Below the pieces are notes generated by a model. That model worked only from the letters and a program-made list of their open reading frames with translations. It searched no databases and had not been told where the DNA came from. This document shows positions 1 through 6,504 of a stretch of DNA of 64,000 nt, piece after piece. How positions within the stretch are numbered: position 1 is the stretch's first letter; every line of letters begins with the position of its first letter. The DNA is from Collinsella aerofaciens. Its GTDB lineage: Bacteria; Actinomycetota; Coriobacteriia; Coriobacteriales; Coriobacteriaceae. The stretch is from assembly GCF_015555045.1 (NCBI RefSeq), contig NZ_JADNJQ010000001.1:1-64000 (forward strand), given 5' to 3'. The position numbers were made by a program, and so were the translations under genes.

Positions 1-189
1 GCGGTGTCCCCTCCCTTTCAAGAAAGGGAAGAGGCGGGGCATGCCCCGCCTCTTACACCACATCTCTGCGCGCTACCCGCCTGACGGCTAAATCGCCTTC
101 TGAAGGCATGAAATCGCTGTTACTAAAATGGTAACAGTACTCATATTTGCTATTTTTTGCCCGCTGGCTTTGCGATGATGCCGGGGTCC
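1..189. other. host intergenic DNA with two hairpins
   Basis: No gene is supported here. Two inverted repeats are visible: CCCTTTC/GAAAGGG at 14-29 and a perfect 22-bp GC-rich palindrome at 31-52. The second resembles a terminator stem but has no clear U-tract on either side, so it is left as a hairpin. Confidence 0.5.
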
Positions 190-656
190 GCACCCTGTCG
201 GGTTCGAATCCCGGCATATCGGTAGCAAAAAGCCCGCTACCGCGAGGGTAACGGGCTCTTCAATTCAAATGGTGCCCCCAGCGGGATGTCCGCGTGCGGC
301 TGGCGCCGCCCGCTTCCGCTGCGTCGCTCCGCTCCTTGCGTGCTGCGCTGGAAAACGCTTGCGCGTTTCCTCAGCTTCGCACCCTGTCGGGTTCGAATCC
401 CGGCATATCGGTAGCAAAAAGCCCGCTACCGCGAGGGTAACGGGCTCTTCAATTCAAATGGTGCCCCCAGCGGGATGTCCGCGTGCGGCTGGCGCCGCCC
501 GCTTCCGCTGCGTCGCTCCGCTCCTTGCGTGCTGCGCTGGAAAACGCTTGCGCGTTTCCTCAGCTTCGCACCCTGTCGGGTTCGAATCCCGGCATATCGG
601 TAGCAAAAAGCCCGCTACCGCGAGGGTAACGGGCTCTTCAATTCAAATGGTGCCCC
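190..656. repeat. 189-bp tandem repeat, two full copies plus a partial third
   Basis: Copies run 190-378, 379-567 and 568-656; the third stops after 89 bases. The two full copies are identical. Each unit contains a T-arm-like segment (GGGTTCGAATCCC), a terminator-like hairpin (AGCCCG...CGGGCT), and then AATGGTGCCCC. In copies 1 and 2 this extends to a 20-base match to the 3' end of tRNA-Glu at 42642-42661. The period is a multiple of three, so one frame stays open and repeats a 63-residue peptide, which is almost certainly not a protein. I read the array as tandemly amplified attachment-site debris at the left prophage border. Confidence 0.85.
646..656. other. candidate attL core of the prophage
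   Basis: AATGGTGCCCC here matches 42642-42652 at the other prophage border. After it the sequence leaves the repeat unit, so this third partial copy is the best junction between host and phage DNA. Copies at 268-287 and 457-476 share 20 bases with the right border and are alternative or older sites. Large serine integrases use short cores, which fits an 11-base match. Confidence 0.6.
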
Positions 657-723
657 GTCCGAACAACTTCTCGAACCGAAATATGCTCGTTCGGGACGAT
701 CGTTCTGCTTAGGATACCACGCT

Positions 724-1035
724 CTAGGCTTGCGGCATAATCGCCTGGTCACCGTTCTCGTCGAGGTACGGCATGAGGTACACGCCTCCCTCGTCGGTGG
801 TGAGCAGAAGATACTCGTGGTTGTAACGGTCGCACACGATCTGCTGATGCACGTCATCGGGCAGGTCGTAGATGGGGCCGTCGGTGCGGGCTGGCGATAC
901 GGTCATCTCCTGCGCTCCCATGGCCTGCCTGGCGCATGAGGCGGCGGCGAACATGATGAGCAGCAGGAGCACCGCCGCCACAAGCGGGCCGCACCCGCCG
1001 TTGCGGTCTTCGTCGGCGGGGCTTGGGTACGGCAT
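724..1035 (-). CDS. small membrane-anchored or lipoprotein-like phage protein
   Basis: 103 residues, last gene of the prophage late operon, directly after the endolysin stop. Residues about 17-36 form one hydrophobic segment ending in AASC, which could be a lipobox or a plain membrane anchor. The soluble C-terminal part has a GGVYLMPYLDENG stretch that resembles small DUF6440-type proteins, a weak family resemblance. A GTG one codon upstream is an alternative start; the ATG at 1035 has GAGGG eight bases upstream. Its place beside the lysis genes suggests a spanin-like or lysogenic-conversion role, but that is inference. Confidence 0.6.
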   Translation of the reverse strand: MPYPSPADEDRNGGCGPLVAAVLLLLIMFAAASCARQAMGAQEMTVSPARTDGPIYDLPDDVHQQIVCDRYNHEYLLLTTDEGGVYLMPYLDENGDQAIMPQA

Positions 1036-1038
1036 CAC

Positions 1039-2100
1039 CTACACCCTCTCGGCGTACTTCTCGCCAGAGGCGGTTTCCACGGCGATCCAGCGCTTGTAGC
1101 CGGAACCTCCCGTGTAGCGGCCCCAAACGTAGCCGTCGGCGGATGCGAACGTGCCGTCGAGCGTCACGGTCTCTCCGCGATGGTAGGTGGCGACGGTCGA
1201 GTAGCCGGTGCCCGCGCCGGAGCGCACGTTCAGGGCATCGACGCAAATGCGGTACGTGCCCGCCGAGTTGCCAGTCTGCACTTGAGCGGTTCCAACGCGC
1301 ACGAGGTAGTCGTTCGGGTCGTAGCCGCCCGTGGGCTTGCCGACGGCGATGTAGCGCGTATGACCGCTGTCGCTGGTGTAACGACCCCACACGTAGCCGT
1401 CGGCGATGCAGTACCAGTCGTCGAGGTTGACCGTCTCGCCCTTGCCGTAGGAAGCGACCACGGAGCCTGAAAGCGCCGGCACGTCCCGCACGTTCAGGCA
1501 ATCGACCGTGCAGCGGTAGGTTCCGTTGAAGCCTGTGCCCTCCTTGCCGGTGTCGCTCGGCTGCTCTGCCGGTACCGATGGCGCGACGGTCGGGGCGCTG
1601 CCGCCGTCGAGAATCGCGTTCACCTCGGATGCGAGCTGACCCATGCGGGCATGCAGCCACGCGCCGGGGCAATCGGTCGAGGAGAACATGCGATGCTCGG
1701 TGAGCGTGGCGTTTCGCGTTCCGTCGTATGCGAGGCGGAAGCCGTAGCGGCGGCAGATGTCGGCGCACAAGTTGACGAGCGCGGCCCACGTGGCGTCGGT
1801 GAGCGAGGAGTCTGCGTTGTTCGCGCACTCGATGGTGATGGCGCGGTCGTCGTTCCACTTGCTCGCGGAAGTCCAGGCGCGGTCGTCCTCGTCCACGCTC
1901 ATGGCGATGTCGCCGTCGTAGCCGATGCAGTAGTTCGAGCTTGCCTGGCGGGCCGTGGCCGCGAAATAGTCGGCGCACTGCCTGCCCGTCCAATGGGCCG
2001 CCATGTAGTGCGGCGTGATCTTGCAAACGCGGTTGCCCGAACGCCCGTTGTTTCGGTTGCCCGTGATGTTGACGTAGGTGCAGAGGCTACTCTTCGTCAT
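1039..2100 (-). CDS. endolysin: N-acetylmuramoyl-L-alanine amidase with two SH3b repeats
   Basis: 353 residues. The N-terminal half is an amidase_2/PGRP-type catalytic domain cutting the bond between N-acetylmuramic acid and the stem peptide. Candidate zinc ligands lie in TPHYMAAHWTG near the start and HRMFSSTDCPGAW near residue 150. A linker near residues 180-195 leads to two bacterial SH3 repeats, each with a LNVR motif and a DGYVWGRYT motif, expected to bind the cell wall. There is no signal peptide, so export should depend on the neighbouring holin. The start at 2100 is chosen for its GGAAGGGG ribosome site; an upstream ATG at 2142 is possible. It is the lysis effector of the prophage. 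Confidence 0.9.
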   Translation of the reverse strand: MTKSSLCTYVNITGNRNNGRSGNRVCKITPHYMAAHWTGRQCADYFAATARQASSNYCIGYDGDIAMSVDEDDRAWTSASKWNDDRAITIECANNADSSLTDATWAALVNLCADICRRYGFRLAYDGTRNATLTEHRMFSSTDCPGAWLHARMGQLASEVNAILDGGSAPTVAPSVPAEQPSDTGKEGTGFNGTYRCTVDCLNVRDVPALSGSVVASYGKGETVNLDDWYCIADGYVWGRYTSDSGHTRYIAVGKPTGGYDPNDYLVRVGTAQVQTGNSAGTYRICVDALNVRSGAGTGYSTVATYHRGETVTLDGTFASADGYVWGRYTGGSGYKRWIAVETASGEKYAERV

Positions 2101-2146
2101 CGTCGCCCCTTCCGTCGTTAAGCTCTTCCAAGGTCTCGTCATCCAT
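2087..2146 (-). CDS. 19-residue acidic peptide ORF in the lysis cassette
   Basis: A tiny frame with a strong GGAGGG ribosome site begins just after the holin stop and overlaps the endolysin start by 14 bases. The peptide is mostly Asp and Glu (MDDETLEELNDGRGDDDEE). It may be a coupling leader that brings ribosomes to the endolysin start rather than a functional protein. Evidence is only the ribosome site and spacing. Confidence 0.35.
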   Translation of the reverse strand: MDDETLEELNDGRGDDDEE

Positions 2147-2148
2147 GG

Positions 2149-2457
2149 CTAGCCCTCCTTCTTCACGTCGCCGAGCGCCAGAAGCGAGTCGAGCCACTTC
2201 GACGTGACGCCCACGGCCTTGAAGGCGGCGTAGGCCACCTGCACGCCGCCGACGCAGGCGAAGATGGAAGTCACCCATGCGCTGGGGTCGGTCGGGATGC
2301 CGTTCGCCATCGCGGTCAGCGCGCCGCACAGGGCGGAAACCGCGATTGCGACCCATCGGGCGGCGTTGCCGCTCATGGCCTTGGTCTTGATTGCCTGCAC
2401 GAGGTACGGAACCACTAGAACCGTCACCACGGTCAGGGCTGCTTGGATTGCGCTCAT
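2149..2457 (-). CDS. holin-like membrane protein
   Basis: 102 residues with two or three hydrophobic segments: about residues 5-24, 33-52 and 60-80. A short charged tail (DVKKEG) follows. Size, topology and position immediately upstream of the endolysin fit a phage holin that permeabilises the inner membrane to release the amidase. No family-defining motif was recognised, so the call rests on topology and context. The stop is followed three bases later by the small acidic ORF. Confidence 0.7.
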   Translation of the reverse strand: MSAIQAALTVVTVLVVPYLVQAIKTKAMSGNAARWVAIAVSALCGALTAMANGIPTDPSAWVTSIFACVGGVQVAYAAFKAVGVTSKWLDSLLALGDVKKEG

Positions 2458-2469
2458 TTCGTTTCCTTC

Positions 2470-2805
2470 CTAGTCGATAACGGGCTGGTTCATCGCGTCC
2501 GTGTAGAGGCGCGTTCCCGTGCCGTTGCCGCCCAGCCCGTGGTAGGCGGCGTAGACGCCTTCGAGGTGCTTTCGGTCGGCGACCGTGAGGCCGTGCTGCT
2601 TGACGGCCTGCTCGTGGATGTTCTTCAGCTCACGCCAAAGAAGCGCCCGCATGCCCATCTTCACGGCCTCGTCGGTGGCCCGTTCTTCCTCGGAACGCTC
2701 GACGGCCTTCTTGCCTTGCGACTTCAGCGCGGCCACGAGGCCCGAGACGATAGCGCCGACGAGGCCTGAAACGAAAGCCGTGAGGGCTACCGCCTCGATG
2801 TCCAT
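2470..2805 (-). CDS. single-pass membrane protein of the lysis module (holin-superfamily-like)
   Basis: 111 residues. An N-terminal hydrophobic helix (about residues 5-28, AFVSGLVGAIVSGLVAAL) is followed by a charged helical region with many Lys and Glu. This is the pattern of LL-H-type phage holins or antiholins, and a second holin-like protein beside a first often modulates timing. The start at 2805 has GGAGG eight bases upstream and overlaps by one base the stop of the XkdX-like gene, so the pair is probably translationally coupled. Confidence 0.6.
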   Translation of the reverse strand: MDIEAVALTAFVSGLVGAIVSGLVAALKSQGKKAVERSEEERATDEAVKMGMRALLWRELKNIHEQAVKQHGLTVADRKHLEGVYAAYHGLGGNGTGTRLYTDAMNQPVID

Positions 2806-2975
2806 TACTCGGCCTCCGCGTACTCTTCCCCGGTGATTTCCTTGTACTCGTCGGCGGTGATCCATTTGCACTCGACAGCCTTGTAGACGCGCGCCTTGCT
2901 CCAAAGGTCTTTGTCGTAGTACTTCTTGACCTTCGCGAAGTGCTTGGAATGCTCAACGGTTTTCTTCGTAGCCAT
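2805..2975 (-). CDS. XkdX-like small phage protein
   Basis: 56 residues. The central KVKKYYDKDLWSKARVYKAV followed by WITADEYKEITGEEY matches the pattern of XkdX-family proteins: a KxYYDxxLW-like helix, then 'I-T-xx-EY-xx-IxG'. These small proteins sit between tail-fibre or baseplate genes and holins in many Gram-positive phages; their function is unknown. Both ends show one-base overlaps with neighbours (TAATG), so it is embedded in a coupled run of three genes. Good GGAGG ribosome site. Confidence 0.75.
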   Translation of the reverse strand: MATKKTVEHSKHFAKVKKYYDKDLWSKARVYKAVECKWITADEYKEITGEEYAEAE

Positions 2976-3301
2976 TACTGGTCACCTCCCACGGTCATGA
3001 GCAGGTAGTCGATGTTCGCCGTGTTGGTCTCGGTCTGCGTCGGCTGGGACGCCTGCTCGCGCATCTGTTCGAGCAGCGCCGGGAGGTCGGGCACCTCGCC
3101 GTTTGCGTAGGCGGCGAGCGCGGAGGTGTAGGCGAGCTTTCGCGCCTTCCGCTCCACGTACTCGTCATCGTCGAGAACGCCCGCGTCGTGCGCCGCGTCG
3201 GGGTCGCCGATCTGCGACAGCAGGTCGCGCAGGGCGTTGACCTCGGCCACGGTGCCGTCTCGAAGCTCGTCGGGGCGCGGCATGTCTTCCTCAGTGTCCA
3301 T
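2975..3301 (-). CDS. phage protein of unknown function upstream of XkdX
   Basis: 108 residues, acidic and helical, with no recognised domain. The order (this gene, XkdX-like, holin-like) is typical of siphovirus lysis and tail-tip borders, where the slot often holds a short helical protein paired with XkdX. AAGGAAGGAG precedes the ATG at 3301, making that start firm. Confidence 0.6.
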   Translation of the reverse strand: MDTEEDMPRPDELRDGTVAEVNALRDLLSQIGDPDAAHDAGVLDDDEYVERKARKLAYTSALAAYANGEVPDLPALLEQMREQASQPTQTETNTANIDYLLMTVGGDQ

Positions 3302-3419: not shown

Positions 3420-4649
3420 TTATTTCGTTTTCGACCCGTCTAGGCCGCCGTTTTGAGTTGCCGCCCTTCCGCTATGGCGAGGGCGTTCCGCCCGAATCGT
3501 CTTTCGGGCTTGGTTGCATTGAGCAACCCCCCCCGCGAGATTTTCGAACAGGCTGCGGTACAGCGCGTCCATGGCCAGCACGCTGCGGTGCGCGTCCAAG
3601 TGAGCCATGCCGCCGCGCCAGCTCTGGTAGCTCTGCTGCACCTGCTCGGGCGTCATGACCCCCTCGGCCACCATGCGGGCCATCTTCTTCAGCTTGCGTC
3701 GCTCGCGCGTGATGGAGTCGCGGCACGGCTTCATGACGATGCGGCCCGTTTCGGTGTAGAAGATGCGCTTCTTCAGCCACGTGAAGCCGCGCGTCAGCTT
3801 CACCATGCGGGTCTTGCGCGGGTTCAGCGCGATGCCGAGCTTCGCGCACTCGTGCTCTATCAGCAGAAGGCACACTTGCAGGTACTCCTTGAACTCGTGG
3901 ATCAGGTAGAAGTCGTCCATGTAGCGCCCGTAGGCCTCGGGGCGCAGCATCTCGGCCACGTAGTGGTCGATGCGGTTGGGGTGCGCCACCGCGCATATCT
4001 GGTTTGGCTCGCTGCCCAGGCCCAGGCCGACCTCGCCCTGCGCGTCTATCAGGCGGTGCTCAAGGGCGACCACGCGCGGGTCGAGCAGCGCGTCGGCCAC
4101 CTGCCGCTTGACCGGCTCGTGGGCAATGCGCGCGAAGTAGTCGGAGAAGTCGCCCAGCAGTATGTAGCCATCGCCGCCGTGCCTCCTCCAGTTGTCGGTC
4201 AGGTGGCGCTTGAGCAGCTTAAGGGCGTAGTCGGTGCCGCGCCCCTTGATGTTCGCGGAGTTGGCGGCTATGAGGGTGGGCACGATCGCGGGCACGAGCG
4301 CGTTCTGGGACAGCGACTTCTGCACCACGCGCTCGGGGAAGTGCACGGCGCTGATATGCCTCAGCTTGCCGCGCTCCCATAGGTCGAAGCGGATGAAGCC
4401 CCGGCATATGTCGCGGCCCTCCAAAAGGTCTTGGCGCGATTTCACGGCGTTTCGCAGGTAGTCCTTCATGTACCGCTGCGTCGAGGCCTTCCACATGACG
4501 CCACGCGCGGCCTGCTTGGAAGCCTTGCACAGGCTGTTGAGGTCGGCCACCGTCTCAAGGGTGCACGCCTTGACGCGCTCGGCCTTGGCCCTGGCGCGCT
4601 TCTCCTCGCGGCGCTTCCGGCGTGCGGCCCGCCTTTGCTCCGAGTTCAT
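3420..4649 (-). CDS. DGR reverse transcriptase
   Basis: 409 residues from the ATG at 4649, close to the usual length of DGR reverse transcriptases. The frame stays open to 4835, but that extension would run into the template RNA region. Catalytic motifs are clear: LLGDFSDYFARI supplies the first aspartate and YMDDFYLI is the YxDD box. The region before the YxDD box reads LGSEPNQ, matching the DGR-type pattern [ILV]GxxxSQ (with N for S) that replaces the QGxxxSP of other reverse transcriptases. The N-terminal 25 residues are Arg/Lys-rich, consistent with RNA binding. It would copy the template RNA error-prone at adenines and pass the cDNA to the variable repeat in the target gene. A terminator follows. 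Confidence 0.93.
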   Translation of the reverse strand: MNSEQRRAARRKRREEKRARAKAERVKACTLETVADLNSLCKASKQAARGVMWKASTQRYMKDYLRNAVKSRQDLLEGRDICRGFIRFDLWERGKLRHISAVHFPERVVQKSLSQNALVPAIVPTLIAANSANIKGRGTDYALKLLKRHLTDNWRRHGGDGYILLGDFSDYFARIAHEPVKRQVADALLDPRVVALEHRLIDAQGEVGLGLGSEPNQICAVAHPNRIDHYVAEMLRPEAYGRYMDDFYLIHEFKEYLQVCLLLIEHECAKLGIALNPRKTRMVKLTRGFTWLKKRIFYTETGRIVMKPCRDSITRERRKLKKMARMVAEGVMTPEQVQQSYQSWRGGMAHLDAHRSVLAMDALYRSLFENLAGGVAQCNQARKTIRAERPRHSGRAATQNGGLDGSKTK

Positions 4650-4861
4650 AGAAGGCACCCCGCACGGCTTGCAATGTGGCTCTGACAGCCGCTTGAGGTA
4701 TGGCCATGAAACGCGGCGAAGCCACGGAGCGCCGCGCCATGCAAGCAGCGTCCGGCCACCCTCGCGGGGTGCGTATTTACGGGCGTAGGCCCGATGGTCG
4801 CGCCTTCCTTCCTCTTCGCGCTCTGCTTTCGGCACGCTGGCCTACTCGGTCTGGCAGTAAG
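4650..4861 (-). ncRNA. spacer of the DGR template RNA between TR and reverse transcriptase
   Basis: About 210 bases between the end of TR and the reverse transcriptase start. In studied DGRs the RNA that primes and templates cDNA synthesis extends from avd through TR into such a spacer. Several short GC-rich inverted repeats are visible. Frames run through it, but none has a ribosome site or a recognisable product. Confidence 0.5.
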
Positions 4862-4989
4862 GGAATCCGGGGCGGGGGCGAATCCAGGTGTTCGTCGCCG
4901 AATTGTAGTTGGCATTGCCGTTGTTGTTGACGTAGCACACGTTGGACGAGGAGCCACCCATGACGGAACGCAGCCACCAATTGTACCGA
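4862..4989 (-). repeat. DGR template repeat (TR)
   Basis: 128 bases aligning without gaps to 5601-5728 at an offset of 739. Read on the minus strand it contains a run of AAC codons (AACAACAAC), the usual codon of diversifiable DGR positions. There are ten differences from VR: eight at template adenines (plus-strand T at 4866, 4883, 4891, 4892, 4904, 4921, 4922, 4925) and two at other bases (4950, 4980). The adenine changes all lie in the half near the GC-rich end. TR lies between avd and the reverse transcriptase and is not itself translated in a plausible frame. Confidence 0.95.
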
Positions 4990-5484: not shown

Positions 5485-5507
5485 GGCACCTCCCGGAAAT
5501 AGTGGCG

Positions 5508-5531
5508 AAAAAAACGGCCCGCTGCGCGGGC
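5508..5531 (-). terminator. terminator-like hairpin between target gene and avd
   Basis: On the minus strand a 6-base stem (GCCCGC/GCGGGC, loop of three) is followed by CGTTTTTTT. It could limit read-through from the late operon so that avd, TR and the reverse transcriptase are expressed at a lower level. Confidence 0.6.
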
Positions 5532-5534
5532 AGG

Positions 5535-5561
5535 GATGCGACCGCGCAAGGCGGTCGCATC
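5535..5561 (-). promoter_or_regulatory. perfect hairpin just past VR, candidate DGR target-recognition structure
   Basis: An 11-base perfect stem (GATGCGACCGC at 5535-5545 and its complement at 5551-5561) with a five-base loop, 40 bases beyond the VR end and 29 beyond the target stop codon. It has no U-tract, so it is not an ordinary terminator. DNA hairpins or cruciforms downstream of VR are known to assist retrohoming in other DGRs. Confidence 0.6.
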
Positions 5562-5589
5562 GAAAGAGAAGTATAGAGCACTCGGCTGG

Positions 5590-6504
5590 CTAGCCGACGA
5601 GGAAGCCGGGGCGGGGGCGAACCCAGGTGGCCGTCGCCGAATAGTAGTTGGCATTGCCGCCGTGGTTGACGTAGCACACGTTGGACGACGAGCCACCCAT
5701 GACGGAACGCAGCCACCAGTTGTACCGAGTTCCGTTCAAGCGGTGCGCGGTATCGCGGAACAGGTCGAACTGGCAGTCGAAGCCCACGCTGTAGCCCTTG
5801 GTGCCCCACACCGGGCAGCCGTACACCTCCATCTCGGAGGGCGACCACACCTTGCCGATGTCCTGCCAGCCCCAGCTGTTGGAGTCGCTGAGCGCGCCGC
5901 TCGCGCTGTAACGCTCCTCAAGCAGCACGCGCTGGGTGAGCAGGTACTTGGTCAGCCCCTCGGGCAGGCACGCCTCGAACAGCTTCTCCCACGCCTTGAG
6001 GTTGCTGTTCAGGTACGGGTTCTTCACGTCTGCGGTGCCCTGGTTGGTGTTCGCGGTGTTCCACATCAGGAAGCTGTCGTTGGCCCCGCCGGTGACGGTC
6101 TTGGCCACGGCGACGGGCGCGGACGCGATGAACGCGATGTGGTGGCCCTTGGCGCTGTCGCCGCACTGGTAGTACGGGTCGAAGTGCGCAAGCAGGAAGC
6201 GCACGGACTGCTGGGCCGCCACGTTTGACGCGCTCACGAGCGGCACGTCGATGTAGTCGCCGACGCGCAGCCCAGCGAAGTTGCCGGCGGCGATGCGCTT
6301 GTGCAGGGCGTCGTACACCGTACCGCTGCCGATCTCCCCGGCAAGGATGGTGGCGATGTTCTGCCCGCCGTACTTGCCGATGAGGCTCTGGCGGTTGTAC
6401 TCCGCGTTGTTGAGCGCCAGCTGGGCGTTCTCTCGGGCCGTGCCGTCGATGAGCGTGTAGGTTTGCCCGTCAATGCCGAAGCGCTCTGCGTTCACTGTTG
6501 CCAT
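5590..6504 (-). CDS. DGR target protein: phage tail-tip protein with C-type-lectin-like variable domain
   Basis: 304 residues. The C-terminal part has the usual landmarks of DGR target or DUF6273-type lectin folds: WGWQDIGKVWSPSE, then NWWLRSVMGG, and a terminal WVRPRPGF. VR supplies the last 40 or so codons. Relative to TR, five residues have changed: N to H, N to G, N to Y, N to A, and I to V, plus a silent Gly change. The N-terminal half shows no recognised domain and presumably anchors the protein to the tail. As the last tail gene it probably binds the host surface or another ligand and is diversified by the DGR. AAAGGAAAC precedes the ATG. Confidence 0.92.
   Translation of the reverse strand: MATVNAERFGIDGQTYTLIDGTARENAQLALNNAEYNRQSLIGKYGGQNIATILAGEIGSGTVYDALHKRIAAGNFAGLRVGDYIDVPLVSASNVAAQQSVRFLLAHFDPYYQCGDSAKGHHIAFIASAPVAVAKTVTGGANDSFLMWNTANTNQGTADVKNPYLNSNLKAWEKLFEACLPEGLTKYLLTQRVLLEERYSASGALSDSNSWGWQDIGKVWSPSEMEVYGCPVWGTKGYSVGFDCQFDLFRDTAHRLNGTRYNWWLRSVMGGSSSNVCYVNHGGNANYYSATATWVRPRPGFLVG
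5601..5728 (-). repeat. DGR variable repeat (VR) in the target gene
   Basis: Gapless partner of TR 4862-4989, located at the 3' end of the target gene. A GC-only run (CGCCCCCGCCCCGG on the minus strand, 5606-5619) near its end is a good candidate initiation-of-homing site. Changed codons are clustered: AAC to CAC, AAC to GGC, AAT to TAT, AAC to GCC, ATT to GTT, GGA to GGC. Confidence 0.95.

Follow-up and report, generated by a model that had tools for sequence, protein, structure and literature searches.

What is the palindrome that follows the VR of a Collinsella aerofaciens DGR, and does it belong to the site at which the element homes? The palindrome, hairpin B, lies in the window, which is the whole 64,000-nt stretch of DNA that was analysed, and a sequence-only reading had proposed that it aids retrohoming as hairpins of known DGRs do. 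From its conservation in related elements, we consider it likely, with a probability of about 0.7, that hairpin B is a target-site element of the DGR.

A DGR with three hairpins behind its VR

The DGR lies on the minus strand at 3.4-6.5 kb of the window, in the order target gene with C-terminal VR, Avd-like gene, TR and RT (Table 1). An RT is thus combined with a TR/VR pair that differs mainly at TR adenines: 8 of the 10 VR/TR mismatches fall there, as do 11/11 and 10/10 in the near relatives L083 and L084. The YMDD motif of the DGR RT is invariant. The Avd accessory gene was recognised by its match to the annotated Avd of Roseburia phage Shimadzu; searches of Pfam, PHROGs and NCBIfam gave no match for this protein. 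Because the DGR adjoins tail genes, such as that for a tape-measure protein, and an amidase gene, we place it in a prophage. The same DGR was found in another genome of the genus (G011), where the RT is 97% identical to that of the window.

Table 1. Positions of the DGR components and of the hairpins behind the VR
Feature	Position in window	Strand	Remarks
RT of the DGR, 471 aa, YMDD	3420..4835	-	RVT_1, E 4.9e-10; phrog_1423, E 8.8e-65
TR	4862..4989	-	repeat match to VR
Avd-like gene, 156 aa	5014..5484	-	25% identity, E 3e-12, to Avd of Roseburia phage Shimadzu
Hairpin C, GCCCGC-GCA-GCGGGC, CG, T7	5531..5508 (stem-loop 5531..5517; T7 5514..5508)	-	terminator-like
Hairpin B, 11-bp stem, loop CTTGC	5535..5561	-	sequence, DNA fold; conserved in relatives
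Hairpin A, TCGGCT-AGCC-AGCCGA, 6-bp stem	5597..5582	-	extends across the stop codon of the target; begins 3 nt past VR
DGR target gene, 304 aa	5590..6504	-	DUF6273 domain over VR, E 3.1e-7
VR, 3' end of target gene	5601..5728	-	92% identity to TR

A second copy of the DGR in the genome of the window (G000:C37, L197, about 1.5-4.5 kb) is 89% identical, has an internal TGA in its RT and has one pair of hairpin B broken. This copy is probably decaying, and a broken pair would be expected in it. In G038:C6 (41-51 kb, L200), two related DGRs lie on opposite strands with a few kb between them. At 189-656 of the window, a 189-nt unit is repeated in tandem, with a third copy of 90 nt, and contains GGTTCGAATCCCGGC, which resembles a tRNA 3' end; ARAGORN found no tRNA in window positions 1-3000. 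The repeat may represent an attachment site or have arisen during assembly.

On the coding (minus) strand, hairpin B reads GATGCGACCGC-CTTGC-GCGGTCGCATC; the plus strand reads gatgcgaccgc (5535-5545), gcaag (5546-5550) and gcggtcgcatc (5551-5561), so the perfect 11-bp stem and five-base loop that had been described are indeed present. Between the VR end (5601) and the stem lie 39 nt, in agreement with the 40 bases given earlier. The sequence-only reading had placed the hairpin in the 3' region of the target gene: it does lie just behind the VR, but beyond the stop codon (gene 6504..5590) and hence outside the gene. The tail after the stem is CCTGCCCGCG, without the U-tract directly after the stem that marks an intrinsic terminator, and the absence of a U-tract had been noted correctly for the stem of B itself. 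As DNA, positions 5500-5600, which include the two neighbouring hairpins, fold with -28.2 kcal/mol against -15.8 +/- 2.2 for shuffled sequences (z -5.6).

The sequence of hairpin B occurs once in the 2.29-Mb assembly. Could it nevertheless be a chance palindrome, or a generic genomic hairpin without a DGR function? In 464 kb of the genome we found 34 perfect hairpins of at least 11 bp, B among them, so stems of this kind are by themselves not unusual there; in order-2 Markov shuffles (204 kb), perfect stems did not exceed 9 bp. Against this explanation, the loop CTTGC or CTTGT was found in 1 of the 125 perfect hairpins with stems of at least 8 bp in the 464-kb sample, namely in hairpin B alone. 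By the same count, we rejected the idea that CTTGC is a loop commonly used by Collinsella terminators, although in the genome the word GCCTTGCGC outnumbers its reversal about threefold (78 vs 26).

Three hairpins lie in a row behind the VR, all before avd: A (+3), B (+39) and C with its T-run (+69). The earlier reading of the site was right in taking B as a candidate, which is conserved, and overlooked its two candidate partners, A and C. Hairpin C starts three bases beyond B and does carry a U-tract. A scan of 8 kb found 6 terminator-like sites where 7.2 were expected, so such a site is weak evidence by itself. In L153, L154 and L155 either hairpin C or its T-run is less well developed, and L157 and L158 have no C. 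With its T-run, it is probably a separate terminator of the target transcript.

Conservation of hairpin B among related DGRs

Relatives were collected by RT searches of IMG/VR, GTDB species genomes and whole genomes (98 relatives; 396 of the class). By script, TR/VR pairs were detected in 245 of the sequences examined, 186 of them VR-first, which yielded 184 usable VR-first loci, 109 of them non-redundant. Within +1 to +90 after the VR, a perfect stem of at least 7 bp was present in 69 of the 72 non-redundant VR-first DGRs with an RT identity of at least 40%, where shuffling predicted 2.9; at least 8 bp were reached in 56 of the same 72 (expectation 0.9). Stem length among the relatives is 7-12 bp. 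Two of the three misses are L245, where the VR end was called early, and L316, which has one G-T pair; the third is probably L004, in which the VR was likewise called early and the hairpin falls just outside the 90 nt. At lower RT identity, the stem was found in 2/4 (35-40%), 3/22 (30-35%) and 3/11 (20-30%) of the loci, and among non-redundant TR-first DGRs in 2/45. The element accompanies DGRs whose VR ends the gene. Its presence follows the RT tree, with 10 parsimony changes on 143 tips against a shuffled mean of 47.5, a pattern that is one of inheritance and says nothing of function.

The stems of relatives are swapped wholesale (CGACCGC, CGCATGC, GCCCCGC, CGGCTAC and others) with pairing intact. 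For a covariation analysis we used 35 of the 44 five-base-loop hairpins (27 distinct sequences); the other nine rows were set aside because MAFFT had put them out of register, and their stems pair too. In the set, 189 of 189 cells were paired, all seven pairs change on both sides, 62 cells were doubly changed, and the 27 distinct sequences held no single-sided change. Covariation was 0.923 as compared with 0.177 +/- 0.036 after shuffling. The complete pairing is aided by the choice of the best hairpin per locus, and the unbiased count is the 69/72 given above. Conservation of the stem with compensatory changes had been named beforehand as the way to check the hairpin, and both were found, with paired substitutions throughout. 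This conservation refutes the explanation by chance, which we regard as highly improbable.

The type of pairing was also distinctive. The best hairpin per locus was picked automatically in 71 of the 72 loci (L245 was dropped; in L320 and L307 the pick differs from B), and the loop-proximal pairs of these 71 stems comprised 554 Watson-Crick, 3 G-T, no A-C and no mismatched pairs. With the identical scoring routine, 207 terminator-like hairpins gave 1378 Watson-Crick, 132 G-T, 54 A-C and 58 mismatched pairs (Fisher p 3e-15, an indicative value, as are all p-values here, since the loci are related). Strict Watson-Crick pairing suits a DNA element, because a G-T pair on one strand is an A-C pair on the other. 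Five-base loops on stems of at least 7 bp were found in 44 of the 71 scored hairpins; the commonest loops among the 71 loci were CTTGC (15) and CTTGT (5), followed by TTTAT, CTCGC, CGACAGC and others. L017 and L018, whose RTs are 75.6% identical, share the CCCACCCC stem and carry reversed loops (CTTGT vs ACAAG). Such a reversal fits an element that is seen from both strands, because a cruciform exposes both loop strands. A U-tract follows the hairpin in 9 of 70 loci. The 69/72 stems, paired substitutions, near-absence of wobble and scarcity of U-tracts identify B as a conserved element of these DGRs.

Position was less informative. The distance from the VR to B has a median of 35 nt (MAD 8, IQR 27-41) and that from B to the avd start a median of 22.5 nt (MAD 5.5; avd start found in 68/70 loci), and in ten loci B lies more than 50 nt from the VR, in most of them close to avd. 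The position of B alone points to neither the VR nor avd as its anchor.

Candidate roles of the hairpins

Because B lies close to the avd start in many loci, an RNA role beside avd is an alternative. Together with C, the B of the window would then terminate the target mRNA or make it more stable, and in other loci B would cap or control the avd-TR-RT message. In nearly every locus B falls between the stop codon of the target and avd, frequently 17-23 nt ahead of the avd start, and in the window C with its T7 follows only 3 nt past B. Of 71 loci, 8, the window included, carry the motif TANACT within the 22 nt that precede B (2.0 expected), and the avd message could start at B. However, the motif is missing from most loci, and the stems contain almost no G-T pairs, compared with about 8% in terminator-like hairpins. 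The rare U-tracts and the loop reversal between the close relatives L017 and L018 likewise argue against an RNA element, as does L165, which has two hairpins and no avd. We judge an RNA role of this kind to be unlikely.

Two further observations concern these sites. In the window, TATACT (5570-5575, minus strand), which resembles a -10 box, lies between A and B; a general promoter at this place was ruled out, since TANACT is found in 8/71 loci only. In L165 (G009:C69, 806-1150), a distant DGR from Collinsella, only 125 nt separate VR from TR, without an avd in between; its hairpins follow the VR at +9 and +48, the first with TAG at the loop.

For the Bordetella phage BPP-1, the available part of Guo et al. 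(2011, PMC3240598) describes a hairpin/cruciform within 24 bp behind the VR that is needed for efficient homing. Stem pairing and loop matter while the stem sequence is free; an enlarged or altered loop nearly abolished function, and longer insertions between VR and hairpin cut activity, whereas a 2-bp extension of the stem was tolerated and the sequence beyond +24 was dispensable. BPP-1 also has a 6-bp palindrome at +33. According to excerpts of PMC12875486, a BPP-1 DGR reconstructed in E. coli is severely impaired once its stem-loop is deleted.

Like the BPP-1 hairpin as described in that part of Guo et al., B is a GC-rich palindrome that follows the VR where the target gene ends, ahead of avd, and in both the stem sequence is free and the pairing kept. 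The BPP-1 hairpin differs in having an 8-bp stem and a GAAA loop and in lying 4 nt from the VR, so B, at 39 nt, is farther away, as had been remarked from the sequence. B also has neighbours, a second hairpin in front of it and a terminator-like one behind. The hairpins of other phage DGRs in the same source likewise have GC-rich stems, of 7-10 bp, downstream of the VR, but with 4-nt GRNA loops and at 4-34 bp from the VR, and B differs from them in its 5-nt loop and greater spacing; its stem has 11 bp, and those of its relatives 7-12 bp. Archaeal DGR hairpins, as far as an extract of PMC4372165 describes them, are also short inverted repeats after the VR; unlike B, they have a GRA trinucleotide loop and lie inside the target gene. 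A named relative is the DGR of Roseburia phage Shimadzu (LR596903), with a 53% identical RT, an annotated Avd and CCGGCTAC-CTCGT-GTAGCCGG at +38; it differs in its 8-bp stem and in having no A stem of at least 5 bp. With intrinsic terminators B shares a GC-rich hairpin after a gene, but it lacks their U-tract and wobble pairs, and it is the neighbouring C that resembles one. The "hairpins" in the text obtained of PMC10743442 are protein beta-hairpins and irrelevant to B; a term search of the accessible text of PMC10907252 and PMC8144416 found nothing on hairpin B.

Hairpin B thus fits a BPP-1-type role in stem type, place and conservation, and departs from it in loop and spacing. The proposal that it aids retrohoming as in known DGRs is partly supported, in that B is a conserved DGR element; the loop and spacing consensus of BPP-1 is not matched.

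By position, the BPP-1 hairpin (+4, the stop codon lying within it or next to it, in the available part of Guo et al.) is matched better by hairpin A, which lies at +3 and spans the stop. Might A be the true homing hairpin, and B a conserved element of another kind? Stems like A of at least 5 bp were found in 22 of 71 relatives (5.7 expected), and several have G-initial, A-rich loops (GTAA, GTGA, GAAT, GAA). However, B is present in nearly all loci, including those that lack A; L002 and L089, for example, keep B without A. The A of the window, moreover, has a stem of just 6 bp and the loop AGCC. We consider this alternative somewhat unlikely.

We return to B as a target-site element, most likely the counterpart, in this clade, of the BPP-1 hairpin/cruciform. 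Where the DNA is supercoiled or briefly single-stranded, B would be extruded as a hairpin or a cruciform, some 40 bp past the IMH, the homing end of the VR. Like the BPP-1 stem-loop, it would then ease the entry of mutagenized cDNA into the VR, either because it flags the site to the RT-Avd complex or because it holds the strands apart. The stop-codon hairpin A is probably another contributor to this target site, and we conjecture that A and B may be extruded together. B starts at a median of 39 nt from the VR in loci with A, 21 nt after the span of A is subtracted, and 30 nt in loci without A, a difference that is suggestive only. In a search for extra VR copies as a test for action in trans, none was found in 141 loci of the clade except the neighbouring DGR in L200.

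DGRs that lack the hairpin

At least three phased ATCT units follow the VR in 41 of 64 DGRs without the hairpin, with spacings of mostly 7 and 8 nt; L039, L047, L061 and L116 are among those in which the array lies just after the VR. Of 144 non-redundant loci, 2 carry both the hairpin and the array. In 31 TR-first loci, codon use at the site differs from that in the rest of the genes (Ser TCT 57% vs 11%; Val GTA 62 vs 22; Leu TTG 48 vs 16; Asn AAT 83 vs 39). Since codons are skewed towards those that spell ATCT, the array appears to be constrained at the DNA level. In L142, a 25-nt gap in the array after the VR holds a small palindrome, AAAGAT-TGGA-ATCTTT. The array is possibly an alternative target-site signal; literature searches on DGRs in general, which were not aimed at the array, returned no title about it.

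A tentative reading, to which we give less than even odds, is that DGR target sites take at least two alternative forms behind the VR, both being landing marks read by the homing machinery. The first, in the clade studied here, would be a strictly Watson-Crick, GC-rich palindrome whose loop, of the CTTGY type, can be reversed and which is often accompanied by a stop-codon hairpin. The second, in DGRs without the hairpin, would be an array of ATCT units phased at 7-8 nt, which is preserved as DNA even where it lies within coding sequence.

The portion of PMC12875486 at hand still treats the entry of DGR cDNA into its target as an open question, and the experimental target-site data found in the literature are those for BPP-1. 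The clade offers about 70 natural variants of the hairpin, with another loop and another spacing; in some of them a second hairpin is added, in some the loop is reversed, and together they allow stem, loop, strand and distance to be assayed apart from one another. Such variants would aid the transfer of DGR diversification to new genes.
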